Below are positions 47,836-61,640 of a stretch of DNA of 64,000 nucleotides, one piece after another. The stretch lies in the NCBI RefSeq assembly GCF_003121585.1, contig NZ_QEOO01000036.1, positions 248,001-312,000 on the forward strand, given 5' to 3'. The position numbers and the translations under genes are program-made. The notes under the pieces are model-generated. The model was given only the letters and a program-made list of their open reading frames with translations, did not search any database and was not told the origin of the DNA. The DNA is from Nocardioides speluncae (GTDB taxonomy: Bacteria > Actinomycetota > Actinomycetes > Propionibacteriales > Nocardioidaceae). Position 1 is the stretch's first letter. Each line of letters opens with the position of its first letter.

Positions 47836-48681
47836 ATGACGCGGATCTCGGTGGATGTGGACGACAAGTTGCTTAAGGCCGCGCGTGAGGAGCTCGGCAC
47901 CGACACCGACGCTGCGACCGTCACTGAGGCTCTTCGGTTGCTCTTCCTGCGTCGCCATGCAGCCGACATCATGGCCGCTCTGGAAAGCGCGGAGATGGAC
48001 TACACCGGCTCGGCGGACGCCTGGCGCTACGGCGGTGGGCGTGACTTCTCGCGCCTTGCCGAGGACGCCCGCTTCGAGCGCGGGAGCCTCTCACAAGTGA
48101 GGTTCCGGGCGCGGGTACGGCGGGTCGACCCGGTCACCCGCGCCGCGATGATCGGCGTCTCGTGGCATCCCGGCTGCCCGGTGGAGATCGACGACCTGCG
48201 GATCATCGAGATGCCGCACCACGGCTTCGACGGCGAGGTCCATCGGGGTGAGCTGATGGTGCACCAGGACATCGCGCGCGACGTCGTCCGCGTGTTCCGC
48301 GAGCTGTTCCGCGCGGGTTTCCCGATCCGGCGGATGGAACTGGTGGAGCGGTACGGCGGCTCCGACGACGAGTCGATGGCTGCCGACAACACCTCGTGCT
48401 TCAACCACCGGCCGATCGAGCGCGCGCCCGAACGGACGTCGAACCACTCCTACGGCAAGGCGATTGACCTCAACACCGTCAAGAACCCGTACGTGCTGGA
48501 CGACACGGTGCTGCCGCCGGCCGGCCGTGACCACCTCGACCGGACCGACGTCCGGCCGGGGATGATCGTGGACGGCGACGTCGTGGTCCGCGCCTTCGCC
48601 AAGTACGGGTTCGAGTGGGGCGGTCACTGGACCACGCTCAAGGACTACCAGCACTTCGAGATCCCTCGGCGTGAGCCCTGA
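47836..48681 (+). CDS. VapB-like antitoxin domain fused to an M15 (D-Ala-D-Ala carboxypeptidase-like) peptidase
   Basis: 281 aa. Residues 1-65 (MTRISVDVDDKLLKAAREEL, then TVTEALRLLFLRRH and LESAEMDYTGSADAWR) have the ribbon-helix-helix plus tail pattern of VapB antitoxins. From about residue 88 a complete M15 domain follows: GVSWHPGCPVEIDDLR, EADNTS-type AADNTSCFNHR, zinc ligands in HSYGKAIDLN and KDYQHFEI. No signal peptide. One continuous frame, no VapC partner nearby. Start chosen at the VapB-like Met; ATG 47824 and GTG 47812 are in-frame alternatives. Stop overlaps the next ATG. Confidence 0.8.
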   Translation: MTRISVDVDDKLLKAAREELGTDTDAATVTEALRLLFLRRHAADIMAALESAEMDYTGSADAWRYGGGRDFSRLAEDARFERGSLSQVRFRARVRRVDPVTRAAMIGVSWHPGCPVEIDDLRIIEMPHHGFDGEVHRGELMVHQDIARDVVRVFRELFRAGFPIRRMELVERYGGSDDESMAADNTSCFNHRPIERAPERTSNHSYGKAIDLNTVKNPYVLDDTVLPPAGRDHLDRTDVRPGMIVDGDVVVRAFAKYGFEWGGHWTTLKDYQHFEIPRREP

Positions 48682-49820
48682 TGAGCCATGACCGGAGCCT
48701 CCTGGCCGCCGTACTCCTGGTGGCGGTAGCCGCTGCGGTCATCGGCGCGGTCATCGGAGAGTTCCCAGACCTGCACGTCTATCGGTACGGCGGCCGGTCG
48801 GTGCTCGACCAGGTGCCCGGCTACGAGTCCGACGACCCGGTCACCGGCTACCCGCTGACCTATCCGCCGTTCGCGGCGCTGGCGATGGTGCCACTGGCAC
48901 TGCTGCCCGGCTGGCTCGCGGCCGGCCTGTGGACCGCGCTGTCGGCGGGCTGCCTGGCCGGCGCCGTGGTGCTGGTACGCCGGGAGCACGACCAGCAGGT
49001 CGCCGGCTGGCTGGTGCTGGCCGTCGCCGCCGGCTCGCCCGCGCTGGAGCCGGTCTGGCAGAACTACTCGTTCGGGCAGATCAACCTGATCCTGATGCTG
49101 GCGATCCTGGTCGACCTGGTGTTTCCGGAGCGGCGCTGGTCGGGACTGCTGCTCGGCATCGCCGCGGGCATCAAGCTGACCCCGCTGGTGTTCGTCGTGC
49201 TGCTGGTGCTGGTCGGCCACCGGCACACAGCCGTTCGGGCATCCCTGAGCTTCGCCGCGACGGTCGCGATCGGGTTGGTCGCGATGCCGGGCGCGTCGTC
49301 GTACTGGACCGATGGCCTGGTCGACCCGAAACGGGTCGGTCCACCACAGCTGGCCCACAACCAGTCGCTCGCCGGCGCCCTGACTCGGATGCTGGGAGAG
49401 CCGCCGCCAACGGTGCTCTGGCTCGCCGTCGCCGGACCGGTTGCGCTCGCGATCATTGCCGTCGCGGCTGCCTGGTGGCGGCGCGGCGACCGGGTCCTGG
49501 GTGCCTGTCTGGGCGCGATGGCGATGCTGGTCGCCTCTCCGGTGTCGTGGTCGCACCACTGGGTGTGGGCGGTCCCGGTCGCGCTGGTTCTGTGGGAGCG
49601 GCTGCGCTGGGCGGCGGCCGGGTGGACTGCGGTGTTCGTGGCCCGGCCGATGCTGTGGCCGCCCTGGGGCGATCGGCGCGAGTTCGACTGGCGCTGGTTC
49701 GAGCACGTCTACGGCAACGCCTACCTGCTCGCCGCGCTCGCCCTGGGTAGCGGGGCCGCTGTCGCAATCGCCAAGATGGGCACTGAACCGTCGGCGATGC
49801 AGGATCGTATGCAGTCATAA
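48681..49820 (+). CDS. GT87-family polyprenyl-phosphate mannosyltransferase-like membrane protein
   Basis: 379 aa, about 9-10 TM helices. Early Asp in EFPDLHVYRYGG, YPPFAALA motif, GQINLILML and AAGIKLTPLVFVVLL are characteristic of the DUF2029/GT87 family of alpha-1,2-mannosyltransferases that build lipoarabinomannan or related glycolipids outside the membrane. SPVSWSHHWVWAVP near the C-terminus is a further conserved motif. ATG overlaps the preceding stop by one base. Confidence 0.88.
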   Translation: MSHDRSLLAAVLLVAVAAAVIGAVIGEFPDLHVYRYGGRSVLDQVPGYESDDPVTGYPLTYPPFAALAMVPLALLPGWLAAGLWTALSAGCLAGAVVLVRREHDQQVAGWLVLAVAAGSPALEPVWQNYSFGQINLILMLAILVDLVFPERRWSGLLLGIAAGIKLTPLVFVVLLVLVGHRHTAVRASLSFAATVAIGLVAMPGASSYWTDGLVDPKRVGPPQLAHNQSLAGALTRMLGEPPPTVLWLAVAGPVALAIIAVAAAWWRRGDRVLGACLGAMAMLVASPVSWSHHWVWAVPVALVLWERLRWAAAGWTAVFVARPMLWPPWGDRREFDWRWFEHVYGNAYLLAALALGSGAAVAIAKMGTEPSAMQDRMQS

Positions 49821-49832
49821 GGAAGGGGTGAC

Positions 49833-50339
49833 ATGCCGGACGACTCAGCGATGAAGGATCTGCACGACGACCACGCTGGGGCTCTCTGGGCGTTCTGTCT
49901 GCACCTCACGGGCAACGACCGAGCGAGGGCGGAGGACGTGGCACAGGAGACGCTGCTGCGCGCGTGGCGGAACTCGGCCGTCCTGGCCGAGTCCAGAGGC
50001 TCGGTGCGGTCCTGGCTGTTCACGGTCGCCCGCAACATCGTGATCGACGAGTGGCGTACCCGGCGGGCCCGGCTGGAGTTCGCGACCGACGAGGTCCCGG
50101 ACCTGACGCCGTCGGGCGACAAGACCGACGAGCTGCTGCTCTCCTGGGTGGTTGCCGAGGCGCTCTCCACGCTGTCGCCCGAGCACCGCGCGGTACTCGT
50201 CGAGTGCTACTACCGCGGTCAGTCCGTGGCCGAGGCCGCCCGCCGGCTCGACATCCCTGAAGGAACCGTGAAGTCACGCACCCACTACGCACTGCGGGCC
50301 CTGCGGCTCGCGCTCGAGGAGCAGGGGGTGGTCGCATGA
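49833..50339 (+). CDS. ECF RNA polymerase sigma factor
   Basis: 168 aa with sigma region 2 (LWAFCLHLTGNDRARAEDVAQETLLRAWR ... VRSWLFTVARNIVIDEWR) and region 4 (LSTLSPEHRAVLVECYYRGQSVAEAARRLDIPEGTVKSRTHYALRALR). No region 1.1 or 3, so the extracytoplasmic-function group. Good AAGGGGTG site. The anti-sigma gene overlaps by 4 nt. Resembles SigK/SigL-type factors, but the subgroup is not certain. Confidence 0.93.
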   Translation: MPDDSAMKDLHDDHAGALWAFCLHLTGNDRARAEDVAQETLLRAWRNSAVLAESRGSVRSWLFTVARNIVIDEWRTRRARLEFATDEVPDLTPSGDKTDELLLSWVVAEALSTLSPEHRAVLVECYYRGQSVAEAARRLDIPEGTVKSRTHYALRALRLALEEQGVVA

Positions 50340-51073
50340 GGTGCGAGTTCGCCCACCTCGACGGCAGCTACGTCCTCGGCGCGCTCGCGGCCGCTGAGCG
50401 TACGGCGTTCGAACGGCACCTGGCCGGGTGCGACGAGTGCTCCCGCTCGGTCCGTGAGCTGGCCGGGCTTCCCGGGCTGATGGGCCGGGTCCCGCTGGAG
50501 GTGCTGGAGCCACCGGGCCAGCACGAGCCGGTCCCGGACACGCTGCTGCCGGCCGTCGTCTCCGAGGTACGCCGCTCCCGGCGCCGCCGCATGGGCGCGG
50601 TGGCCGGGGTGGCCGCTGCCGCCGCGACGATCGTCGTCGCCGGTCTGGTCGGCGTCGCCGTCACGGCGCTGGACAGCGACGACGAGAACCCGCAGGCAGG
50701 TCCGCCGATCACGTCGACGACGACCACCGAGGACGCCGTACGGATGGAGAGCCTCGGGTCCGGCCGGGTCACCGGATGGATCACGCTGACCGAGAAGCCC
50801 TGGGGCACCCGGATCGACCTGAACTGCACCTACGGTGGCGGGAGCTACGGCGGCGGTGAGGACAGTGGACAGGGCCGCGGCCGCGGCGGCCCGCCGACGT
50901 ACGTGATGTTCGTCCGCGCCACCGACGGCGAGTTCGAGCAGGTCGGGACCTGGACGGCCGACTACGGCTCGGCGATGCACGTGACCATGGCGGCCGCCCC
51001 GTCACCCGAGGACATCGAGGAGGTCCTGGTCAAGACGGGTGAAGGGAAGTCAGTGCTCCGCCTTGTGAAGTGA
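50336..51073 (+). CDS. Zinc-finger-type membrane anti-sigma factor
   Basis: 245 aa. N-terminal anti-sigma domain with the ZAS pattern Hx3CxxC: HLAGCDEC at about residues 27-34. One TM (MGAVAGVAAAAATIVVAGLVGVAVTAL, about 85-110), then an extracytoplasmic domain with a Gly-rich stretch (CTYGGGSYGGGEDSGQGRGR). Binds and holds the sigma factor encoded upstream until a surface signal releases it. Its last 24 nt overlap the convergent membrane gene. Confidence 0.9.
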   Translation: MRCEFAHLDGSYVLGALAAAERTAFERHLAGCDECSRSVRELAGLPGLMGRVPLEVLEPPGQHEPVPDTLLPAVVSEVRRSRRRRMGAVAGVAAAAATIVVAGLVGVAVTALDSDDENPQAGPPITSTTTTEDAVRMESLGSGRVTGWITLTEKPWGTRIDLNCTYGGGSYGGGEDSGQGRGRGGPPTYVMFVRATDGEFEQVGTWTADYGSAMHVTMAAAPSPEDIEEVLVKTGEGKSVLRLVK

Positions 51074-51451
51074 GCTTTGCCGCACCGGAAGAAACCTGTC
51101 CAGCCAGCCCTCGGCACGCAGCGACCAGAGCCCGGCGACGATCACGACCACCTCGGAGGCGGCGGCCAGCCACTCGTCCCAGCCCTCCCAGGAGGCGTGC
51201 ACGTCGAACAGGCCGACGGTCGTGGAGATGATGAACGCGCCGAGCGTCGAGATGCCGAACCCGACGACCAGGAACAGTGGCAGCCAGTGTCGCCAGGTCA
51301 CCAGGAGTACGGCGATCACCGCACCCGCGATCGCGTTCACCATGAACGCCGGCCCGATCACGTCCTGATCGCGCACGCCCTCGAACCACAGCCACAGGTG
51401 CACCGCCGCCGAGACCAGTGCCGCCACCGCTGCCAGAACCCTTATCGCCAT
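51050..51451 (-). CDS. Small four-helix membrane protein
   Basis: 133 aa with four TM segments (VLAAVAALVSAAVHLWLWF, IGPAFMVNAIAGAVIAVLLV, LPLFLVVGFGISTLGAFII, WLAAASEVVVIVAGLWSL). GGAG precedes the ATG. Similar small proteins are common in actinobacteria; function unknown. Overlaps the anti-sigma gene tail to tail. Confidence 0.8.
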   Translation of the reverse strand: MAIRVLAAVAALVSAAVHLWLWFEGVRDQDVIGPAFMVNAIAGAVIAVLLVTWRHWLPLFLVVGFGISTLGAFIISTTVGLFDVHASWEGWDEWLAAASEVVVIVAGLWSLRAEGWLDRFLPVRQSSLHKAEH

Positions 51452-51525: not shown

Positions 51526-53856
51526 TCATTCCGGCGAGCCGAAGGCGGAGAACAGCCGGTCCCGGACCTCGTCCATCCGCCAGACCGGCGCGTCCGGTCG
51601 CGGGTACAGCCCGTCCTGCCACTCCCAGTCGGCGATCCGCTCGATCACCGCGGGGTCCTGGGCGATCACGGTGACCGGCACGTCGCGGCCGGAGTCGTCA
51701 CCGCTGACGAACGAGTGTGGCTGGTGGTCGCCGGCGATCAGCAGCACCCGGTTCGGGTCGGGGTAGGTGCGCAGGAACGAGATCAGCGTGCGCCACGTGT
51801 ACTCGATCGACTTGCCGTAGTACCGCTGGGCGGTCTCCGGGTCCTGCCGCCCGTCCACCGCCTCCTCGCCGCGCTCCGGCATCCCCGAGAAGACCGAGCC
51901 GTCGCCGACCTCGCGCCACGGGACCAGCTTCGGCAGCGGCGCCCACGGATGGTGGCTGGAGATCAGATCGATCTCGGCCATCACCGGCCGGCGGTCCGCG
52001 GGCTCGAGCTCGGTGCGGCGGAAGTGCTCCAGCGTGTACTGGTCGGGCATAGAGGCGTAGCCGAACTTGGGGCCGTCGTACTCGACGTCGCGGGAGTCGG
52101 TGAGGTCGTCGAACCCGTAGTACGCCGCCCCCTCGGGCCAGTCGCGGGTGTTTGCCGGCACCGCGAAGACCGTGCGCCAGCCGGCGCGGTCGAACGCCCG
52201 GGTCAGCGACAGCCGGTCGCTGTCCAGCAGCTGCCGGTAGCGCTGCTCGGAGTTCGCCCACACCCCCGACTGGAGGGTTCCGTGCGCCAGCCAGCTCCCG
52301 GCGCCGAACGTCGGCGAGGTCAGGTAGGCGCTGCGGGTTCGGTAGCCGGCGGCCTTGAGCCAGCGCTCGCCGTCGTCGAGTACGTCGACGATGTCCGGCG
52401 CGAACGCCGAGTCCTCCAGCGCGATCCGGCCGTAGCTCTCCACCCAGACCAGCAGCACGTCCTTGCCGCGCAGGCCGGAGAGGAGCTGGTCCGACGGGGT
52501 GTCGCGGAACGCGTCGGCGTCGAGCTCCTGCTGGAACGACACGCGGTCGCGGCGGTCCGCTCGTACCTGGTCGACCGTGTCGACCACCAGATCGGCCGAC
52601 CGTGCGGCCGCCACCTGCGCCGCAACTCCGCCCGACGCCGCGCACAGCGCCCACGCCACCGCGAGCGCGACGGTCGCCTCGGTGGCACGGCGGCGGTGCT
52701 CGGTCGCCACCCGGGTCACTCGCAGAGCGGCCCACGGTACGACGACGGCCAGGCCCACGATCAGCGCTACGACGGCCACCAGCGCCAGCACCGCAGGCGC
52801 GGTCCCCTCGGTGTCGCGCACCAGCTCGACCGCCTTCGGCAGATAGGACCAGTCGCTCAGCAGGTGGTAGGAGCGGTCCAGCACGAACTGGAAGCCGAAG
52901 CCGAGCGCACGCAGCACCGCCAGCGCGGCGGCCGCGAGCCCGAGCACGACCGCGGCGATCCGGCGCGGACGGTGTGGCAGCACCAGCGCGATGCCGACCA
53001 GGGCCAGCCCCTCGATGGGGATGCGCAGCAGATCGCCCGCGTCGAACCCGTCGGTGAGCCGGGGCGGGGCGAGCGCGGCCCACAGGACGATGACGGCGGC
53101 GATGGTCGGGACCGCGGCCCGGGCGAAGGCGTGCTCGGTCGGGGGAGCGGGTACGACCGGCAGCGGCTCGCGGCGGTGCCGCCACTGCCACCTGACGTCG
53201 GTGCCGAAAGAGTGCAGAAGGAGCAGCAGCGCGACCGCAAGCACCAGCCGGGTCAGCAGGTTGGGCAGCAGGCTGGTCGCCGCGACCGTCAGCACGATGC
53301 CCTGGATGGCGGCGACCACCTTGGCGGCGTACCGCGGCGGCGTCGGTCGCCGCAGCCACGACAGCAGCCAGCCGGCCGCGACGTACCCGTAGCGCATGGC
53401 GCCGATCGCGAGCACCCACCAGCCGCTGGCCGCGGCGGCGTACACACTGAGCACCGCGATCAGGAAGGCGTCGACCTCCATGTCGAAGCGGGCGCCGAAT
53501 GCGGTCTCGGTCGTGGTACGGCGGGCGACGTGGCCATCGACCGCATCCAGCACGAGAGCGACCGACGCGAGTGCGACCAGCGCCGCCACCGTCGTCGAGC
53601 CGACCAGCGCGTCGGCGGTGAGCGCCGCGACACCGCAGGCGAGCACCGCCCGAGTCACCGTGATCCGGCCGGCCGGGCCGAGGCCGGGCAGGCCGTGCCG
53701 GACCAGCGCGGTGTCGAGCAGGACCGCGAGCACCGCACCGCAGCCGAGACCGACCACCCAGCCGGCCGCACCCAGCCCTACCGTCGCCGCGAGCACGCCG
53801 CAGAGCGTCGCCGCACCGGCGAACCCTGCTACCGCCCCGAGGTGAACCCGCTCCAT
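51526..53856 (-). CDS. CDP-alcohol phosphotransferase fused to a membrane sulfatase/phosphatase-like domain
   Basis: 776 aa. Residues about 60-210: CDP-alcohol phosphotransferase with the whole signature (LDAVDGHVARR ... GARFDMEVDA). Then further TM helices (about 215-410), and from about residue 450 an alkaline-phosphatase/sulfatase-fold domain: metal ligand in LLVWVESYGR, nucleophile region SPTFGAGSWLAHG, SSHHPW and IAGDHQPHSF. Such folds include lipoteichoic acid synthase, which transfers phosphoglycerol. GGAGGCGGG precedes the ATG. Divergent from the dehydrogenase-PTPS-GT operon, sharing a 97-bp intergenic region. Predicted to make and then transfer or trim a phospho-alcohol headgroup. 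Confidence 0.85.
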   Translation of the reverse strand: MERVHLGAVAGFAGAATLCGVLAATVGLGAAGWVVGLGCGAVLAVLLDTALVRHGLPGLGPAGRITVTRAVLACGVAALTADALVGSTTVAALVALASVALVLDAVDGHVARRTTTETAFGARFDMEVDAFLIAVLSVYAAAASGWWVLAIGAMRYGYVAAGWLLSWLRRPTPPRYAAKVVAAIQGIVLTVAATSLLPNLLTRLVLAVALLLLLHSFGTDVRWQWRHRREPLPVVPAPPTEHAFARAAVPTIAAVIVLWAALAPPRLTDGFDAGDLLRIPIEGLALVGIALVLPHRPRRIAAVVLGLAAAALAVLRALGFGFQFVLDRSYHLLSDWSYLPKAVELVRDTEGTAPAVLALVAVVALIVGLAVVVPWAALRVTRVATEHRRRATEATVALAVAWALCAASGGVAAQVAAARSADLVVDTVDQVRADRRDRVSFQQELDADAFRDTPSDQLLSGLRGKDVLLVWVESYGRIALEDSAFAPDIVDVLDDGERWLKAAGYRTRSAYLTSPTFGAGSWLAHGTLQSGVWANSEQRYRQLLDSDRLSLTRAFDRAGWRTVFAVPANTRDWPEGAAYYGFDDLTDSRDVEYDGPKFGYASMPDQYTLEHFRRTELEPADRRPVMAEIDLISSHHPWAPLPKLVPWREVGDGSVFSGMPERGEEAVDGRQDPETAQRYYGKSIEYTWRTLISFLRTYPDPNRVLLIAGDHQPHSFVSGDDSGRDVPVTVIAQDPAVIERIADWEWQDGLYPRPDAPVWRMDEVRDRLFSAFGSPE

Positions 53857-53953
53857 CCCGCCTCCGTGAACTAGCTCATCTAGGTTGTATCAATGCTGGC
53901 TACGGCGTCGGAGAGGCGTCGGTTCAATGGATCACCGGAGGGAGACCGAGGTC

Positions 53954-54952
53954 GTGTCCCGAATGGCGGCGGACGACGCGCAGGCCTTCTGGCTCGCTGA
54001 GCCGGGCAGGGGAGAGATCCGTCCGGTCACGCTGGCCGAGCCGGGTTCCGGCGAGGTGCGGGTGCGGGCGGTGCGCTCCGCGATCAGCCGTGGCACCGAA
54101 TCCCTGGTCTTCGCCGGCAAGGTCCCGGCGAGCGAGCGTGACCGGATGCGGGCCCCGTTCCAGGACGGCGAGTTCCCGGCACCGGTGAAGTACGGCTACC
54201 TCAGCGTCGGGGTGGTCGAGCAGGGGCCGCCGGAGCTCGCGGGCCGGACCGTCTTCTGCCTCTACCCCCACCAGACCGCGTACGTCGTACCGGCCGGCGC
54301 GGTCGTTCCCGTTCCCGACGGCGTTCCCGCGGCGCGGGCGGTGCTGGCCGGCACCGTGGAGACGGCCGTGAACGCGCTGTGGGACGCCGCCCCGCTGGTC
54401 GGCGACCGGGTCGCGGTGGTCGGCGCCGGCATGGTGGGCTGCAGCGTGGCCCGTCTGCTCGCCGGCATCCCGGGCGTCCGGGTCACGCTCGTCGACACCG
54501 AGCCGAGCCGGGCCGAGGTGGCCGCCGCTCTCGGGGTCGGCTTCGCGGCGCCCGAGGCTGCGCCGGCCGGCTGCGACCTCGTCGTGCACACCAGCGCCAC
54601 CGAAGCCGGGCTGCGGACCTCACTCGGGCTGCTGCGTCCTGAGGGCACCGTCATCGAGCTCAGCTGGTACGGCGACACCCAGGTCGCCGTACCGCTCGGA
54701 GAGGCGTTCCATGCGTCGCGGCTCAGCATCCGCGCCAGCCAGGTCGGCACCGTCGCCCCTGTCCGACAGGGCAGCCGCAGCCACCGCGACCGCCTAGCGC
54801 TCGCGCTCGAGCTGCTGCGCGACCCGGCCTTCGACGTGCTGTTGACCGGCACGTCGCCGTTCGCGGAGCTCCCGGAGACGATGGCGGCACTGGCCGCCGG
54901 ACGCCTGCCGGGCCTGTGTCACTCAGTCAGCTACGACGATCTGGAGGCCTAG
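53954..54952 (+). CDS. MDR-family oxidoreductase (zinc ligands missing)
   Basis: 332 aa medium-chain dehydrogenase/reductase. N-terminal GroES-like half (PGSGEVRVRAVRSAISRGTE) and Rossmann half with VAVVGAGMVGCSVARLL. The GHE and Cys ligands of the catalytic zinc are not found (KYGYLSVGVVEQG in their place), so it may be zinc-independent, as in the SRGTE group related to BchC. Start GTG is preferred for its GGAGGGAG site; ATG at 53927 and 53963 are alternatives. Followed by PTPS after 3 nt. Confidence 0.85.
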   Translation: MSRMAADDAQAFWLAEPGRGEIRPVTLAEPGSGEVRVRAVRSAISRGTESLVFAGKVPASERDRMRAPFQDGEFPAPVKYGYLSVGVVEQGPPELAGRTVFCLYPHQTAYVVPAGAVVPVPDGVPAARAVLAGTVETAVNALWDAAPLVGDRVAVVGAGMVGCSVARLLAGIPGVRVTLVDTEPSRAEVAAALGVGFAAPEAAPAGCDLVVHTSATEAGLRTSLGLLRPEGTVIELSWYGDTQVAVPLGEAFHASRLSIRASQVGTVAPVRQGSRSHRDRLALALELLRDPAFDVLLTGTSPFAELPETMAALAAGRLPGLCHSVSYDDLEA

Positions 54953-54955
54953 CCA

Positions 54956-55354
54956 GTGTTCAAGGTGACCGTCCGCGACCACATCATGATCGCCCACAGC
55001 TTCCGGGGTGAGGTCTTCGGTCCGGCGCAGCGACTCCACGGCGCGACGTACGTCGTCGACGCCAGCTTCGCCGCGCCCGAGCTGGACGCCGACGGGATCG
55101 TGGTCGACATCGGGCTGGCCACCACCCAGCTGCACGACGTCCTCGCCGCGCTCAACTACCGGAACCTCGACGACGAGCCGTCTCTCGCCGGCCAGAACAC
55201 CTCCACCGAGATGCTGGCGCGACTGATCGCCGACCAGCTCGCCGAGCGCGCCAAGGACGGCCGGCTCGGCCCGGGCGCCCGCATTCTCTCGGGGATCGAG
55301 GTGACGCTGCGCGAGTCCCACGTCGCCTGGGCCAGCTACGAGCGTGCGCTGTGA
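54956..55354 (+). CDS. 6-pyruvoyltetrahydropterin synthase/QueD-family protein, degenerate site
   Basis: 132 aa T-fold protein, GTG start. AHSFRG (His about 14) and [13 protein letters not shown] (His about 28) match two of the three zinc histidines, but the usual LHGHNY is LHGATY, so the third ligand is missing, and no Cys precedes the motif. The C-terminal [11 protein letters not shown] contains the conserved Glu. Family members act on dihydroneopterin triphosphate; this variant probably does a different reaction or uses other ligands. Overlaps the GT gene by 4 nt. Confidence 0.85.
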
Positions 55355-56358
55355 CTCCTGTTGTCGGCCGGGTCCATTTCGTCGTCCCGGAGGGCATCGA
55401 CGACCCGGCCCGTCCCAGCGGCGGGAACGTCTACGACCGGAGGCTTGCCGCGGAGCTGACCGGGCTGGGCTGGACGGTCCACGAGCACCATGTGGCGGGG
55501 TCACGACTGCTCGCCGAGATCCCCGACCGGGCGATCACCGTCGTCGACGGCCTGGTCGGCACGGCCGAGGTGATGGTGACCGAGGCGGCCCGGCTGCGGC
55601 TGGTGCTGCTGGTGCACATGCCGCTGGGTGGGCCGGTCGAGCGCGCCGTACTCAACCACGCGGCGGCGGTCATCACGACCAGCCAATGGGCCCGAGGCTG
55701 GCTGATCACCCAGCACGGGCTTGCGGCCGACAAGGTGTCGGTCGCGCTTCCCGGCGTGGACCCTGCGCCGGTGGTGGCCGGGTCGGCCGGAGGGACAAAT
55801 CTTCTGTGTGTCGGCCCCGTCGTCCGCGAGAAGGGGTACGACGTCCTCATGGACGCGCTGCGCAACCTGCCGGACCTCGCCTGGCACTGCACGGTCGCCG
55901 GCGCCCTCGACCTCGAGCCCGGGTTCGTCGCCGACTCGGCCGGCGTCGCTGACAGGGTGTCCTTCCTCGGACCGGTCACGCAGGCCCGTCTCGACACGAT
56001 CCGCTCGGCCACCGATCTGGTCGTGTCGGCGTCGCGCCGGGAGTCGTTCGGCATGGCCGTGGCCGAGGGGCTGGCCCGTGGGATCCCGGTCGTCGCGACC
56101 GACGTCGGCGGGCACCCCGAGGTGGTCGGCCCAGCCGGCGTCCTGGTGCCGGCCGGCGACCCGGTGCGCCTCGCCTCGGCGCTCCGCGAGTGGCTGACCG
56201 ATCCTCGGCTGCGTGACCGGCTGCGCCGGGCGGCCATCCAGCGCAGCGGTGAGCTGACGACCTGGGCCGACACCGCAAGCGCGGTGAACCGATCGCTGCT
56301 GGCGCTCGTATCCCCGTCCAACAGTCAGCTGCCAAATAGGCAGACGACCGCCGGCTAG
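55351..56358 (+). CDS. Glycosyltransferase family 4 (GT-B)
   Basis: 335 aa soluble or membrane-associated retaining glycosyltransferase. [28 protein letters not shown] acceptor-side motif, [28 protein letters not shown] hinge, and the donor-site E-x7-[34 protein letters not shown] start overlaps the PTPS stop. Acceptor unknown; by context a lipid-linked intermediate. Confidence 0.9.
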
Positions 56359-56368
56359 GGGGACCACG

Positions 56369-57274
56369 ATCAGCACGACAAGACTCTGGAAGCTGGCCCG
56401 ACCGCTCGTCGGCCTGGCGATCCTGGCGGCGCTCGGCTACCGACTCGGCGCGGAGCCGTTCGTCGAGGGGCTGCGGCGCACTGAGCCGTGGACCCTGGCC
56501 GCCGCGCTCGCGATCACGGCGGTCACCACCTGGTGCTGCGCCCGGCGCTGGAGCCTGCTCGCGGAGCGGCTGGAGGTAGCGGTGCCGGTGGGTGCGGCGT
56601 ACCAGGCCTGCTACCGCGCCCAGTTCTTGAACGCCACCCTGCCCGGCGGGATCGTCGGCGACGTACACCGCGCGGTCCAGCACGGCCGTGACGCCGGGGC
56701 GATGGCGCGCGGCGTGCGGTCGGTGGTGTGGGACCGGGCTACCGGGCAGCTGGTGCAGGTCGGGCTTGCGATCGCGGCCGTCCCGCTGCTGCCCGGATCG
56801 CTGCGAGCACCGGTGCTATGGACGCTGGCCGTCGTCGCGGTTGCCGTGCTGACCGCGGTGATGACGGAGTTCCGGATGCTGTTCGGCGCGGCCGGCGTCT
56901 GGCAGCGCGCCGTACTCCTCTCCGCGGTCGCCGCCTGCGGGCACCTGGTCGTCTTCCTCATCGCCGCCCGGGCGGTCGGGGTGGACATCCCGGCCGTTCA
57001 GGTCATCGCGCTCGGGCTGGTGGTGATGCTCGCCTCGGCGATCCCGCTGAACGTCGCCGGCTGGGGACCGCGCGAAGGTGCGGCCGCGTGGGTGTTCGGT
57101 GCCGCTGGCCTCGGCGCGGGCACCGGGCTCGAGGTCGCGGTCGCGTACGGCGTGATGTCGCTGGTCGCGACCCTGCCCGGAGCGCTGATGCTGCGCGGCA
57201 GGACCGCGACCGAGCGCCCGGACCCGGCGCCGGTCGCCGTGCCGGCAGGAGTTGGGGTCCCGGCGCATGGCTGA
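56369..57274 (+). CDS. UPF0104/LPG-synthase TM-domain membrane protein with non-canonical start
   Basis: 301 aa if it starts at ATC 56369, five nt after GGGGGA. Homology-like sequence reaches back to LWKLARPLVGLAILAALGYR and the RRWSLLAERLE motif of this family, but the first in-frame ATG/GTG/TTG is GTG 56582, which would delete two TM helices. About seven TMs; FLNATLPGGIVGDVHRA and NVAGWGPREGAAA are the conserved motifs. Such proteins have been seen as glycolipid flippase-like or transferase components (AglD, LPG synthase TM part). Overlaps the reductase gene by 8 nt. Confidence 0.75.
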   Translation: MSTTRLWKLARPLVGLAILAALGYRLGAEPFVEGLRRTEPWTLAAALAITAVTTWCCARRWSLLAERLEVAVPVGAAYQACYRAQFLNATLPGGIVGDVHRAVQHGRDAGAMARGVRSVVWDRATGQLVQVGLAIAAVPLLPGSLRAPVLWTLAVVAVAVLTAVMTEFRMLFGAAGVWQRAVLLSAVAACGHLVVFLIAARAVGVDIPAVQVIALGLVVMLASAIPLNVAGWGPREGAAAWVFGAAGLGAGTGLEVAVAYGVMSLVATLPGALMLRGRTATERPDPAPVAVPAGVGVPAHG

Positions 57275-57977
57275 GCGGCCGTACACGATCCTGAGCTGCA
57301 GCATGTCGCTGGACGGCTACATCGACAGCGCCGCCGACGAGCGGCTGCTGCTGTCCAATGAGGCCGACTTCGACCGCGTCGACGAGGTCAGGGCCGGCTG
57401 TGACGCGATCCTGGTCGGTGCCGCCACGGTGCGCAACGACGACCCGGCGCTGCTGGTCCGCTCCGAGCAGCGCCGGCAGCGACGCCTGGCCGCCGGCAAG
57501 CCGGAGTCGCCGGTCAAGGTGACGCTGACCAAGGGCGGCGATCTGGATCCGGCTGCCCGGTTCTTCACCCAGGGTTCCGGCGAGAAGCTCGTCTACTGCC
57601 CGTCCACGGCGATGCCGGCGACCGCCGCCCGCGTCGGCCGGCTGGCCACCGTGGTCGACGCGGGCGCCGGCGTGACGATGAGCGGCCTGCGCGCGGACCT
57701 GCACGCGCGCGGCGTACGACGGCTGATGGTCGAGGGGGGCGGCACCGTGCACACCCAGTTCCTCACCGAGGGCCAGGTCGACGAGCTGCAGCTGGTGGTT
57801 GCGCCGTTCTTCGTCGGCGACTCCGGCGCGCGCCGGTTCGTGTACGACGGCCGCTTCCCGTGGTGCGCCGAGCATCGCGCCACCCTGGTCGAGGCGCGGC
57901 CGATCGGCGACGTCGTGCTCCTGCGCTACGCGATGTCGGACCGCTTCCGGCGCGAGTCGAGCGGGGGAGGTGTCTGA
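57267..57977 (+). CDS. RibD C-terminal/dihydrofolate reductase-like pyrimidine reductase
   Basis: 236 aa. SCSMSLDGYIDSA at the N-terminus, AGCDAILVGAATVRNDDPALLVR and LMVEGGGTVHTQFLTEGQVDEL match the RibD_C/DHFR-like fold that reduces the ribosyl-aminopyrimidine made by GTP cyclohydrolase II with NADPH. The deaminase half of RibD is absent. Directly followed by GTP cyclohydrolase II with one-base overlap, so both act on one substrate chain. Confidence 0.9.
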   Translation: MAERPYTILSCSMSLDGYIDSAADERLLLSNEADFDRVDEVRAGCDAILVGAATVRNDDPALLVRSEQRRQRRLAAGKPESPVKVTLTKGGDLDPAARFFTQGSGEKLVYCPSTAMPATAARVGRLATVVDAGAGVTMSGLRADLHARGVRRLMVEGGGTVHTQFLTEGQVDELQLVVAPFFVGDSGARRFVYDGRFPWCAEHRATLVEARPIGDVVLLRYAMSDRFRRESSGGGV

Positions 57978-58630
57978 TGTGCGCCGAGCTTCCCGCCGCC
58001 CGGATCCGCAGCGAGCTGGCCCTGCCGATCCGGTCGGCCGACGGCTTCGCGACCGTGGCCCGCGCGTACACCTTCGACGGTCTCGTCGACGGCCGGGAGC
58101 ACCTTGCGCTCCGGCTCGGCGACGCTGGCGACAGGGGCGACGCGACCCCGCTCGTGCGGCTGCACAGCGAGTGCCTGACCGGCGACGTACTCGGCAGCCA
58201 GCGCTGCGACTGCGGGCCGCAGCTGAACGAGGCCATCGAGCGGCTCACCGAGGCCGGCGGCTACCTGCTGTACCTCCGGCAGGAGGGCCGCGGGATCGGG
58301 CTCTACAACAAGCTCGACGCCTACAAGCTCCAGGACGGCGGCCTCGACACCTACCAGGCCAACCTGGCGCTCGGGCACGGCGCCGACGAGCGCGACTACA
58401 CCGTCGGCGCGCAGATGCTCGCTGCGCTCGGGATCGGCACGCTGGCGCTGCTGAGCAACAACCCGGACAAGGCGGCCCAGCTCGCGGCGGCCGGGCTGAC
58501 TGTCGTGGAACGGGTGGCGACCGGCGTCCACGTGTCGCCCGACAACGTCGCGTACCTCGCCGCGAAGGCACTCCGTGGCGACCACGATCTGGAGCTCGGG
58601 GACGCACAAACCAGTGTTCTGGGCTATTGA
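57977..58630 (+). CDS. ribA: GTP cyclohydrolase II (stand-alone RibA)
   Basis: 217 aa. Zinc site with three Cys in HSECLTGDVLGSQRCDCGPQL, catalytic region RQEGRGIGLYNKLDAYKLQDGGLDTYQAN and TNNP-type SNNPDKAAQL. It opens GTP to 2,5-diamino-6-ribosylamino-pyrimidinone 5'-phosphate. It stands alone without the DHBP synthase half common in actinobacterial riboflavin operons, and without ribE/ribH, so it more likely serves the cluster than general riboflavin supply. Confidence 0.93.
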   Translation: MCAELPAARIRSELALPIRSADGFATVARAYTFDGLVDGREHLALRLGDAGDRGDATPLVRLHSECLTGDVLGSQRCDCGPQLNEAIERLTEAGGYLLYLRQEGRGIGLYNKLDAYKLQDGGLDTYQANLALGHGADERDYTVGAQMLAALGIGTLALLSNNPDKAAQLAAAGLTVVERVATGVHVSPDNVAYLAAKALRGDHDLELGDAQTSVLGY

Positions 58631-58703
58631 CCCCGCCTTGGGGGCGACTTAACTTTCGAGGTGGGGAGGTTTACCAGATCTCGGGAGGAACCGAGGTCCT
58701 GTG

Positions 58704-61640
58704 ATGCGCCGATCGCTTATCGGCAGCCTTTCCCTGGCTGTCTGCGTTGCCTTTCTCACGACTCCCGGTGAGGCCCGGACCGGTCCGTCCGCCGAGCCCA
58801 CGGCCGCTCAGTCCGCGCAGACCGCCCGGTTCACCGACGGCCGCTACCTCGTCACGTTCAGCGATGATCCCGTCGCGTCGTACGACGGCTACAAGCAGGG
58901 CTTCCCGCGCACCCGTCCCGCTCCCGGACGCAAGATCAACCGCAACGCTGCCGCGGTCACGAAGTGGCAGGCGCACCTGGTGGGCAAGCACAACGCTGCG
59001 CTCAAGACGGTCGGGGCCGAGAAGATCTACGACTACACGGTGACCAACAACGGCGTCGCGGCGATGCTCACCGCCCGGCAGGCCAGCCGCCTGGCCAAGA
59101 TGGCCGGCATCGTGGCCGTCACCAAGGACGAGCTGAGGCAGCCCGCGACCACTGACTCCCCGGCCTTCCTCGGGCTCGACGCCCCGGGTGGGCTGTGGTC
59201 GCAGCTCGGTGGGCCTGCGAACGCCGGCGCTGGCGTGGTGGTCGGCGTGCTCGACACCGGCATCTGGCCGGAGAGCGCGGCCTTCGCCGGAGGGACCGGC
59301 ATCCCGGTGCCGGCCGGCTGGAGCGGCGAGTGCGTGGCCGGCGAGCAGTGGACGAAGAAGAAGCTGTGCAACGACAAGCTGATCGGCGCCCGCTACTACC
59401 TCGACGGTTTCGGACACAACAACATCGCCGTCGCCGACTACCACTCGACCCGGGACGGAAGTGGCCACGGCTCGCACACCGCCTCCACGGCTGCCGGTAG
59501 GAACGGCACCAATGTCACCATCGACGGCAATCCGATCGGCAGCGGGTCCGGTATGGCGCCGGGCGCCAAGGTGGCGGCGTACAAGGTCTGCTGGGAGGGC
59601 AAGCCGGGCGTCGCCCCGGGATGCTTCAGCTCCGACAGCGTCGCCGCCATCAACGACGCCGTCCTCGATGGCGTGGACGTGATCAACTACTCCATCGGCG
59701 GCGGCTCGGAGTCCTCGGTGTTCGACTCGGTGGAGCAGGCGTTCCGGGGCGCGTCCAACGCCGGTGTCTTCGCCGCGAACTCCGCCGGCAACAGTGGCCC
59801 CGGCGCCAGCACGTTCGACCACCCGTCGCCCTGGGTGACCACGGTGGCCGCGGCGACCTTCCGGCGCGCGTTCCAGGCTGTTGAGCTCGGCAACGGCCAG
59901 CGCTTCGTCGGCGCGTCGATCACCTCCGGACTCGCAAACGCCACCCAGCTGGTGACGTCGCTGAGCGTCAAGGCCGCCGGCGCCACCGACGCCAACGCCA
60001 GGCTGTGTGCTTCTGGTTCGCTCGACCCGGCCCTGGCGGCCGGCAAGGTGGTCCAGTGCGACCGCGGCGTGGTTGACCGGATCGCCAAGAGCGCCGAGGT
60101 CAAGCGGGTCGGTGGCGTGGCGATGGTGATGACCAACACCTCGGAGAACTCGCTCAACGCCGACTACCACTTCGTCCCGTCTGTGCACCTGAGCCACGTG
60201 GCCCGGCAGCCGATCCTCGACTACATCACCGCTGCCGGCACGGGCGCGACGGCGAAGCTGGTACCGCTGACCGCGGCCGAGCTCGCAGTGGCACCCCAGG
60301 TGCCCGAGATCGCGGCGTTCTCCTCACGCGGGCCGTCGGTCACCCTGGCTGGTGACCTGATCAAGCCGGATCTGGCCGCCCCCGGTGTCGACGTCGTGGC
60401 TGCGGTCGCCCCGCCGTCCGGGTTCGGCCGGAGCTGGGACTTCCTGTCCGGTACGTCGATGTCCAGCCCACACGTGGCCGGCTTCGGAGCGCTGCTCAAG
60501 GCGGCGCACCCGACCTGGCTGCCCTCGGAGATCAAGTCCGCACTGATGACCACGGCCACAGACACCGTGTCCAGCGCGGACGACCCGTTCGCCCAGGGAG
60601 CCGGCTTCGCGCAGCCGAACTCCTCGGTCGACCCGGGCCTGGTTTACCCGACCACGCCCAACGAGTACCGCTCCTTCATGGTCGGCCTGGGCGCGCAGTT
60701 CCTGCCCCCGTTCGACACGTTGCCGCCGATCTCGACGTCCAACCTGAACCAGCCGTCGATCGGTGTGGGTGACCTCGCCGGAGTCGAGACGGTCACCCGG
60801 CGGGTGAAGAACGTCGGTGACGCCACCGCGACATACACCGCGGCCGCGGAGGTCAGCGGCTTCGACATCGTGGTCACACCGAGCCAGCTCGCGCTCGACC
60901 CGGGCGAGGAAGCCGAGTTCACGGTGCAGTTCACCCGCACCGATGCACCACTCAGCGCCTGGGCGGTTGGCTCGCTGACCTGGACCGACGGCACGCACGT
61001 GGTCCGCAGCCCGATCGCGCTGGAACCGGTCGCGGTGAGCGCTCCGGTCGAGGTGCACGCCGACGCAAGTGCCGAGGGCTCGGCGGACTTCCAGGTCACG
61101 CCCGGCTTCACCGGCGTCCTCAACAGCTCGGTGGCCGGGCTGGTCGGGGTCACCCCGGTCACGGACTCCGTCGTCACCGGCCCGTTCGACATCAACAACC
61201 CGGAAGCCGACGCGGACACGAAGCTGTACGAGGTGACGGTGCCGGATGGCACTCCGGTGGCCCGGTTCAGCCTGGACGCGGATGACGACACCTCCGACCT
61301 CGACCTCTTCGCATACGTCGATGGCGAGTTCGTCGCTCTGTCGGCCAGCGGGGCGGCCGACGAGGAGATCACTCTCGTCGACCCGCTCGCGGGGACCTAT
61401 CAGGTCTACGTCAACGGATTCGCGACACCAGGAGGGTCGACGTCCTACCAGCTGGCGAACTTCGTGGTCGGGGCCGCGTCTGCGGGCAACGCCACCGTGG
61501 CGCCGGCCTCGACGCCGGTGACGATCGGCGATCCCGTGACGCTGACCGTGTCCTGGTTCGGCCTTGACCCGGCGAAGCGTTGGCTTGGGGCCGTGCAGTA
61601 CGAGAACAGTGACGAGGTGACGCTGGTATCGGTCGGCTGA
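58704..61640 (+). CDS. Secreted subtilisin-like serine protease (S8, plant-subtilase architecture)
   Basis: 978 aa. Signal peptide ([20 protein letters not shown]), I9 propeptide (about 45-145), S8 domain with Asp in [12 protein letters not shown], His in [14 protein letters not shown] and Ser in [15 protein letters not shown], oxyanion Asn in [14 protein letters not shown] domain is inserted between His and Ser (about 400-500). C-terminal Fn3-like ([16 protein letters not shown]) and PPC-like ([22 protein letters not shown]) domains follow. Single gene with GAGG before the ATG; a GTG directly precedes it. Confidence 0.93.

Follow-up and report, generated by a model that had tools for sequence, protein, structure and literature searches.

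A conserved PTPS-IV gene module that may build a GTP-derived, glycosylated compound handled at the membrane

Why should enzymes of the riboflavin and pterin type stand in one row with a glycosyltransferase and face genes for lipid head groups? This question is raised by a locus of Nocardioides speluncae (contig NZ_QEOO01000036.1), at positions 51,526 to 58,630 of a stretch of 64,000 nucleotides (contig positions 248,001 to 312,000) that was analyzed as a whole and is called the window here. Inspection of the sequence and Pfam searches on the 64-kb window located all seven module genes (Table 1). The gene set that a sequence-only reading of this DNA had named is therefore present: GTP cyclohydrolase II (GCHII), a RibD-type reductase, a PTPS protein, a GT4 glycosyltransferase, a UPF0104 flippase-like protein and an MDR dehydrogenase, facing a CDP-alcohol transferase fusion. 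The interlocking by stop/start overlaps that the same reading described applies to three of the five plus-strand junctions (PTPS/GT4, 4 nt; flippase/RibD, 8 nt; RibD/GCHII, 1 nt, TGATG), whereas the MDR/PTPS and GT4/flippase pairs nearly touch, with gaps of 3 and 10 nt. We propose, with somewhat better than even confidence, that these genes belong to a conserved module for a GTP-derived, non-deaminated, glycosylated pteridine or pyrimidine that is handled at the membrane.

The linkage of these genes was followed through other genomes. A profile of five PTPS proteins was run against the contigs of 84,980 species and returned at least 553 relatives, the best 80 of which were taken as loci. In total 91 loci were scored by tblastn (these 80, three from a search of the window's order and eight from a phylum sample, two duplicates having been dropped), and 68 of them were well covered, reaching 6.0 kb upstream and 6.5 kb downstream. 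All 68 contain MDR and PTPS, followed by GT4 (67), the flippase (66), a methyltransferase that usually lies between GT4 and the flippase (61), the CDP transferase (60), GCHII (59), RibD_C (37), a creatininase-family gene (35) and the sulfatase part of the fusion (23). Beyond these ten named families, no gene family was found in more than 14 of 84 loci. The junctions are tight as well, with a 4-nt overlap of PTPS and GT4 in 56 of 82 pairs and of GT4 and the methyltransferase in 49 of 71. As the 80 loci had been chosen by similarity, the phylum sample provides a fairer test: eight of its 396 genomes, the window's included, have a PTPS-IV protein above 200 bits, and the module is present in each of the other seven, as was read directly in six and from the twin locus L055 in the seventh. 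Within the window's order the module is sparse (5 of 57 genomes, including the window's own). Two weaker relatives are L129, with MDR and GT4 only, and L130, a 3.8-kb contig with PTPS, GT4, flippase, RibD_C and GCHII. The gene set is genuine, and its genes are linked far more often than chance would allow; the well-covered loci (n = 68) answer the doubt whether the rib-type genes accompany the glycosyltransferase and flippase genes in other genomes.

The sequence-only reading had mentioned similar gene sets in other actinobacteria, where they do occur, but this range proved too narrow, since the module is also found in Proteobacteria and, in part, in haloarchaea. The window PTPS matched 27 plasmid records in PLSDB, 22 of which were read (11 proteobacterial, 7 haloarchaeal and 4 actinobacterial). 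No more than 2 kb separates MDR from PTPS in 21 of the 22, comprising all 11 proteobacterial, all 7 haloarchaeal and 3 of the 4 actinobacterial plasmids. At a threshold of 43 bits, these 22 loci contain GT4 (16), the methyltransferase (15), the CDP transferase (14), RibD_C (11), GCHII (8), the flippase (8) and the sulfatase part (7). Nearly the whole window set is carried by Peteryoungia, Rhizobium sp. SL42 and an Agrobacterium pAt plasmid, with genes for sulfatase, flippase, CDP transferase, ribA, MDR, PTPS, GT4, methyltransferase and RibD and, in addition, for a cytochrome b. A cytochrome b561-like gene lies inside the module, next to RibD, in 7 of the 11 proteobacterial loci (six Rhizobiaceae and one Thiodictyon: L147, L149, L152, L153, L163, L164 and L168), its identity being assigned by Pfam in the two that were scanned, Peteryoungia and Thiodictyon. 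In Haloarcula halophila, Haloarcula sp. GH36 and H. pelagica, the genes for the CDP transferase, GTP cyclohydrolase IIa (= III), MDR, PTPS and the methyltransferase stand in a row. The copy on a Methylosinus trichosporium plasmid (L148:538-20336) is flanked on one side by an efflux RND system and on the other by a sulfite dehydrogenase gene (soxC) with a cytochrome c gene.

A reduced arrangement is found in another family of the window's phylum (f21), in which nine genomes have RIBD-MDR-PTPS-GT4 in one row (L131-L137, L139 and L140). Divergent folB-family and acyltransferase-family genes adjoin the module in all nine and a different methyltransferase-family gene in six, these neighbor families having been identified by Pfam on L136. 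As this folB is the only one of the genome in eight of the nine cases, it may be just the folate gene. The nine loci belong to a set of 16 with other PTPS proteins that served as controls; the set is not a clean control for this reason, and its seven remaining members are without MDR and GT4.

The first chemical step can be read from the cyclohydrolases. The window GCHII is placed in its family by model NF001591 (subfamily model PRK00393; 251.4 bits, cut-off 148) and falls just short of the equivalog-domain model TIGR00505 (194.4, cut-off 205.85). In the alignment it has a tyrosine at the position of E. coli residue 105. Work by Spoonamore et al. in 2006 is said to have found that GCHII of this Tyr105 type makes 2,5-diamino-6-ribosylamino-4(3H)-pyrimidinone 5'-phosphate (APy) and that the Met-type enzyme SCO6655 of Streptomyces coelicolor stops at the formylated form, FAPy. 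It was expected beforehand that non-Tyr copies need a deformylase. By tblastn, a creatininase-family gene was found within 8 kb in 41 of 41 loci with non-Tyr GCHII (25 Met, 14 His, 1 Gln and 1 Cys; 35 of the loci well covered) and in 0 of 30 loci with Tyr GCHII (24 well covered). Seven plasmid GCHII proteins that were read agree, six being Tyr-type without creatininase and one Met-type with it, and the single creatininase of the window genome lies on another contig. In Sinorhizobium meliloti, a protein that bears the creatininase annotation has been shown experimentally to be a formamidase for the FAPy deformylation step, according to the accessible text of that report (PMC9478397).

Other loci obtain the cyclohydrolase differently. 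GTP cyclohydrolase III (PF05165) was detected at 271.7 bits in L157, with homologs in L158 and L166, and lies directly upstream of MDR-PTPS in three Haloarcula. This enzyme is unrelated to GCHII and forms FAPy. In H. sinaiiensis a creatininase is located approximately 6 kb from PTPS. Three Pseudonocardia loci (L025, L052 and L075) encode GCHII-RibD_C fusion proteins. The three alternative cyclohydrolase supplies (Tyr GCHII, non-Tyr GCHII with a creatininase, and GTP cyclohydrolase III) point to the conversion of GTP to APy, a starting reaction that appears well supported, as different enzymes have been recruited for one intermediate; this is the strongest functional evidence. The notion of a moiety made from GTP has thus gained strong support from the comparison.

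A plain riboflavin pathway was considered and rejected. The window genome has two GCHII matches, and the second is found on the same contig among rpe, ribD, ribE, ribBA and ribH, approximately 29-35 kb beyond the window end (genes named by eye; GCHII and RibD_C domains by search). No sugar, PTPS or lipid query matched within this 10-kb stretch. The window ribA would have carried a different meaning as the organism's sole riboflavin gene, a case that the sequence-only reading had named as fatal to it; a second complete rib gene set shows that it is not. The late genes are also unlinked to the module: queries for RibE, RibH, DHBP synthase (DHBPS) and the RibD deaminase, taken from the same genome, matched none of the 91 + 22 loci at E 1e-5, with a lower sensitivity in haloarchaea, and all four were found in three riboflavin-type loci (L138, L141 and L142) that served as positive control.

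The PTPS protein itself differs from the enzyme whose name it often bears. It matches the PTPS family of Pfam with 83 bits and carries FGPAQ, the signature of PTPS-IV; the extended pattern FGPA..LHGA is present in 90 of 91 loci, the remaining one being cut by the contig end. In QueD (E. coli numbering), Cys27 is catalytic together with Asp70-His71, and His16, His31 and His33 bind zinc. The window protein has H(16), A(27), H(31), A(33), N(70) and Y(71) at these positions and reaches 38.7 bits against the QueD (PTPS-I) model TIGR03367, whose cut-off is 89.25. Of the 122 sequences compared, none has His71 and 121 lack Cys27, the last being cut off; every one of them keeps the equivalent of Glu110, which binds the 2-amino-4-oxopyrimidine ring in the PTPS family. 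One zinc histidine is lost in actinobacterial and bacterial-plasmid proteins; all three are intact in 9 f21 and 7 haloarchaeal forms. As the catalytic residues are lost, PTPS-IV is not QueD, and the annotation as 6-carboxytetrahydropterin synthase in 21 of the 27 PLSDB records is very likely wrong. A queuosine or 7-deazapurine pathway was rejected because the QueD catalytic residues are absent; QueC and QueE were not noticed among the annotated families, in which they were not searched by name. The PTPS profile also matches SCO6650, deposited as PDB 3d7j ('Uncharacterized protein'), with 246 bits.

The constant partner of PTPS is the MDR protein, which matches ADH_zinc_N with 26.7 bits (cut-off 31.8) and the BchC model TIGR01202 with 42 bits (cut-off 291.25) and thus lies outside BchC proper. 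An invariant SRGTE motif stands where MDR enzymes usually carry the zinc-binding cysteine. Its structural model (mean pLDDT 81.8) yielded general MDR fold matches.

The reductase bears on the question whether the ring resembles a pterin or a flavin. It consists of the RibD_C domain only and lacks the N-terminal deaminase of bifunctional bacterial RibD. Its nearest solved sequences are 5xv5 and relatives ('Conserved protein'; 110-114 bits, 5xv5 itself 114), and the nearest named one is 6p8c, a 2,5-diamino-6-ribosylaminopyrimidinone 5'-phosphate reductase (94 bits); chains named RibD give at most 55 bits (Rv2671, 55). Among NCBI models, the general RibD C-terminal model scores 122.6, the archaeal model TIGR01508 117.7 (cut-off 186.45) and the bacterial RibD model 86.4, and no reductase model cut-off is reached. 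Because no clear RibD deaminase is linked, because of this nearest named relative and because of the conserved PTPS glutamate, the intermediate probably keeps its 2-amino group and would be pterin-like rather than flavin-like. The pterin-like moiety of the initial proposal is supported by the same evidence, the deaminase being absent at E 1e-5. With no lumazine synthase, riboflavin synthase, DHBP synthase or clear RibD deaminase linked, the product should be neither a flavin nor, probably, F420. The window genome contains 26 RibD_C-domain matches, some of them partial, which seems many.

The remaining genes would act on this intermediate. The PF03706 match of the flippase-like protein lies above the cut-off of 33.4 and places it in the UPF0104/LPG_synthase_TM family, from which a flippase activity is predicted; TIGR00374 gives 37.4 bits, below its cut-off of 43.2. 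The fusion protein combines a PF01066 match (CDP-OH_P_transf, 41.7 bits) with the sequence DG-x2-AR-x8-G-x3-D-x3-D at residue 107, the signature motif of CDP-alcohol phosphatidyltransferases; match and motif together assign it to these enzymes. The motif is present in 76 of 76 loci where the gene was found. Pfam gave no match for the sulfatase part of the window protein, but among aligned relatives or parts PF00884 was matched by 15 of 27; the SPTFG and GDHQ motifs are present. A PDB sequence search with the fusion profile found nothing. The AlphaFold model of the fusion (mean pLDDT 82.4, pTM 0.63) is closest in fold to LtaP (4uop; E 6.9e-09), LtaS, MCR-1 and GacH, with 10-15% identity and target TM-scores of 0.41-0.58 across the LtaS/GacH/EptA-type matches. 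Enzymes of this type move a phospho-alcohol from a lipid on the outside of the membrane. By analogy, it is plausible that the fused pair makes a phospholipid and then transfers its head group. The constant company of GT4, methyltransferase, UPF0104 protein and CDP-alcohol transferase argues for a product that is glycosylated, often methylated and handled at the membrane. Attachment to a lipid or surface glycolipid is plausible, given that the CDP-alcohol transferase and the flippase-like protein are constant companions and an LtaS-like domain is found in a third of the loci.

The following route would accommodate these genes. GCHII would open GTP to APy, in relatives in two steps via FAPy with a creatininase-type deformylase. 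RibD_C may then act like the archaeal reductases and reduce this intermediate while it still bears its 2-amino group, or it may reduce a dihydropterin formed subsequently, and PTPS-IV with the adjacent MDR might reshape or cyclize the side chain to a pterin-like compound. A sugar would be added by GT4 and, in most relatives, a methyl group by the methyltransferase. The CDP-alcohol transferase could assemble the product or a sugar-phosphate lipid carrying it, the UPF0104 protein could move either of them across the membrane, and the LtaS-like domain, where present, could carry out phosphotransfer outside.

Several observations weigh against this proposal. The switch residue of GCHII shows a single change on the tree of this enzyme and two changes on that of the four core proteins, creatininase following both times; with so few changes the association amounts statistically to one or two events and cannot be significant. 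Neither enzyme of the early steps is obligatory, as GCHII is absent from 9 of the 68 well-covered loci, including three Nocardioides-type sister loci, and RibD_C is linked in only 37. The reductase scores slightly higher on the general than on the archaeal RibD model, below both cut-offs, and L048, L129 and L162 show weak deaminase-like matches once E is relaxed to 0.01. Flippase and CDP transferase were not detected in the nine f21 loci, the window is without the methyltransferase of the module, and PTPS-IV stands alone, the module being absent, on a Streptomyces anthocyanicus plasmid (L167, NZ_CP109229.1). Adjacency of PTPS and rib genes is in itself weak evidence, since the QueD-type loci L138, L141 and L142 also lie near a riboflavin set. 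On the S. anthocyanicus plasmid, PTPS-IV is located near cupin and MEKHLA-domain genes, possibly reflecting another use of PTPS-IV.

Among the other explanations, a soluble, exported pterin or pyrimidine glycoside deserves consideration, even if we regard it as rather unlikely. Such an antimetabolite, signal or UV/redox metabolite would have no bond to a lipid, and the membrane proteins would serve export or self-protection. GT4, the methyltransferase and the membrane protein fit this explanation, and so does the fact that 8 of 68 loci are without the CDP transferase; pterin glycosides have precedents in cyanobacteria and Chlorobium, according to the accessible parts of the respective papers (PMC13259868; PMC5683033). 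A purely soluble product would, however, hardly account for the CDP-alcohol phosphatidyltransferase, which 60 of the 68 loci contain and which recurs across phyla, or for its fusion to an LtaS-like domain. Also, the GT4 enzymes are not, to our knowledge, of the known pterin-glycosyltransferase type. A pathway for a teichoic-acid-like or phosphoglycan surface polymer, with the GTP-derived part serving only as a cofactor for MDR or the methyltransferase, would account for the LtaS/GacH-like fold fused to the CDP-alcohol transferase in the window lineage and for the GT87 and ECF sigma neighbors in sister loci. We consider it improbable because the sulfatase part is present in 23 of 68 loci against 68 of 68 for PTPS and MDR, which form the most constant pair.

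Production of F420 or another deazaflavin fed by PTPS-IV seems very improbable. A role of PTPS-IV in this pathway is mentioned as unpublished work in the accessible text of PMC5041015, and APy and its ribityl form lie on the way to the F420 precursor. The RibD deaminase is nevertheless unlinked in 113 loci at E 1e-5, and F420 requires deaminated 5-amino-6-ribitylaminouracil. The module also occurs in Rhizobiaceae, which are not known to make F420, and GT4, CDP transferase and flippase have no known F420 role; no family outside the ten named ones exceeds 14 of 84 loci, in which F420 genes were not searched by name. Hardly credible is a chance neighborhood of spare riboflavin genes, paralogous ribA and ribD for extra flavin, beside a glycan operon. 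GCHII and RibD_C are riboflavin families and QueD and rib genes can adjoin, as in the three riboflavin-type loci, but a complete rib set exists elsewhere in the genome, the other rib steps are unlinked in the 113 loci at E 1e-5, and the linkage persists across phyla with a non-homologous cyclohydrolase, so that the comparative linkage already contradicts this explanation. Within the proposed membrane-handled, glycosylated compound, a more specific and on present evidence improbable idea is that a lipid-anchored glycosylated (tetrahydro)pteridine plays a part comparable to that of quinones and methanophenazine, either as a redox carrier in the membrane or as a cofactor at the surface. It arises from the cytochrome b561 gene, the expected partner, in 7 of 11 proteobacterial loci. 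With two of these b561 proteins as queries, none of the 91 actinobacterial loci gave a match at E 1e-3, so a redox partner would have to lie elsewhere there.

The borders of the module in the window were drawn by comparison. The S8 subtilase (58701-61640), pyrR, pyrB, EF-P, M15 peptidase and permease genes were left out because none of them is matched in any of the 91 loci at E 1e-6. Phages gave no match. Homologs of a GT87 gene, a sigma/anti-sigma pair and a small membrane protein lie near some of four sister copies (L009, L040, L053 and L084), and these genes may therefore belong to the module in the Nocardioides-type lineage; the sigma and anti-sigma factors both have close homologs near the module in L009, L040 and L084, and Pfam gave no match for the small membrane protein. 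The gap between the divergent units is likely the site of their promoters, and a consensus scan of 53700-58800 gave no sigma-70 match. Three terminator sites were found in the region against 0.7 expected. The flippase frame contains no ATG, GTG or TTG upstream of 56582, although homology can be traced from about 56369, where an ATC follows a GGGG stretch; the start codon would then be a rare ATC, or else the sequence carries a variant. Additional genes were seen in single lineages: a histidine-phosphatase-family gene in L025 and L026 and an FkbM methyltransferase homolog in L025, L026 and L075, all of Pseudonocardia type, and two insertion-sequence-like genes (by eye) that separate RIBD from GCHII at L011:12499-13559.

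Table 1. Module genes, intergenic elements and candidate lineage-specific neighbors, in window positions
Feature	Position	Strand	Basis
GT87 glycosyltransferase; possible lineage-specific part	48681..49820	+	PF09594, 159 bits; homologs in L040, L053 (2/91 loci)
ECF sigma factor; possible lineage-specific regulator	49833-50339	+	Pfam
zf-HC2 anti-sigma factor; possible lineage-specific regulator	50336-51073	+	Pfam
Small membrane protein encoded downstream of the fusion; may be a lineage-specific part	51050..51451	-	Homologs in L009, L040, L084 (3/91 loci)
CDP-alcohol phosphatidyltransferase (residues ~65-212) fused to membrane-anchored LtaS/EptA-like (sulfatase-superfamily) domain; 776 aa	51526..53856	-	PF01066, motif, model
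Intergenic, 70 bp, between divergent units	53857..53926	.	Sequence
MDR-superfamily dehydrogenase ('zinc-binding alcohol dehydrogenase'), distantly BchC-like; start provisional	53927..54952	+	Pfam, NCBI models, fold model
PTPS-IV T-fold protein, FGPAQ motif	54956..55354	+	Pfam, residue comparison, profile
GT4 glycosyltransferase, E-x7-E at residue 231	55351..56358	+	Glycos_transf_1, 97.8 bits; motif
Flippase-like LPG_synthase_TM (UPF0104) membrane protein; start unsure	56369..57274	+	PF03706, 107.2 bits
RibD_C-type reductase without deaminase domain	57267..57977	+	PF01872, 135.4 bits
GTP cyclohydrolase II, Tyr at E. coli Tyr105 position	57977..58630	+	PF00925, 192.8 bits
Terminator-like hairpin directly 3' of GCHII stop, 5 pairs	58634..58646	+	Consensus scan alone

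The accessible literature contains parts of this picture. PTPS-IV has been described as a COG0720 cluster-node of 561 sequences that 'preferentially' carry FGPAQ, with PF00925 and PF01872 in the neighborhood, in the portion available of PMC5445326; that text labels PF00925 'GTP cyclohydrolase I / FolE2', the Pfam name being GTP cyclohydrolase II. Subfamily, motif and these two neighbors are thus already published, and the pathway is otherwise undescribed as far as could be found. Searches of an open-access library, which leaves most subscription journals outside and gives weak evidence of absence, turned up no paper on a product, on the creatininase rule or on the module's genes for sugar and lipid handling; this agrees with the statement of the sequence-only reading that there was no described product. 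For S. coelicolor, the accessible parts of two expression studies report SCO6652 transcripts raised over first mycelium both in aerial mycelium (log2 4.3) and in spores (log2 4.1) (PMC3610822) and list SCO6655, named as GCHII, in a table of genes mostly up in stationary phase (PMC2853524). By tag order, SCO6652 would be the methyltransferase, and the expression of the two genes hints at a developmental role of the module. A pathway kept in Actinomycetota, Pseudomonadota and haloarchaea would add a new kind of GTP-derived, probably membrane-associated molecule, and PTPS-IV, whose structure is still titled 'Uncharacterized protein SCO6650', gains a testable role.

Set beside known systems, the module shares the GCHII and RibD_C families with the riboflavin operon but is without deaminase, DHBPS, RibE and RibH (E 1e-5), in a genome that holds a separate rib set. 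The archaeal ArfA/ArfB/ArfC route (GTP cyclohydrolase III, FAPy deformylase and reductase) has the same first chemical steps, and GTP cyclohydrolase III itself is present in the haloarchaeal copies; the module differs in its coupling to GT4, methyltransferase and lipid enzymes and in the unlinked late riboflavin steps. The phospho-alcohol transferases LtaS, GacH and EptA (MCR-1) provide the best folds for the window fusion model, whereas the window protein is fused to a CDP-alcohol transferase and shares 10-15% identity with them. The pterin glycosides of cyanobacteria and Chlorobium carry a sugar on a GTP-derived pteridine, as proposed here for the module, but they depend on GTP cyclohydrolase I, PTPS-II and other glycosyltransferases and come without lipid genes. 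The published PTPS-IV subfamily shares FGPAQ with the window protein, and the links to GT4, flippase, CDP transferase, MDR, methyltransferase and creatininase as well as a product are absent from the accessible part of its description (PMC5445326). The counterpart in S. coelicolor, SCO6650-SCO6655, begins with SCO6650 (PDB 3d7j), a PTPS-IV protein by the profile match given above, and the order of its tags would fit the PTPS-GT4-MT-FLP-creatininase-GCHII arrangement of related Streptomyces loci. Its GCHII, SCO6655, is reported to be Met-type, and by analogy with relatives it would be accompanied by a creatininase, whereas the window has a Tyr-type GCHII with RibD_C and is without the methyltransferase.

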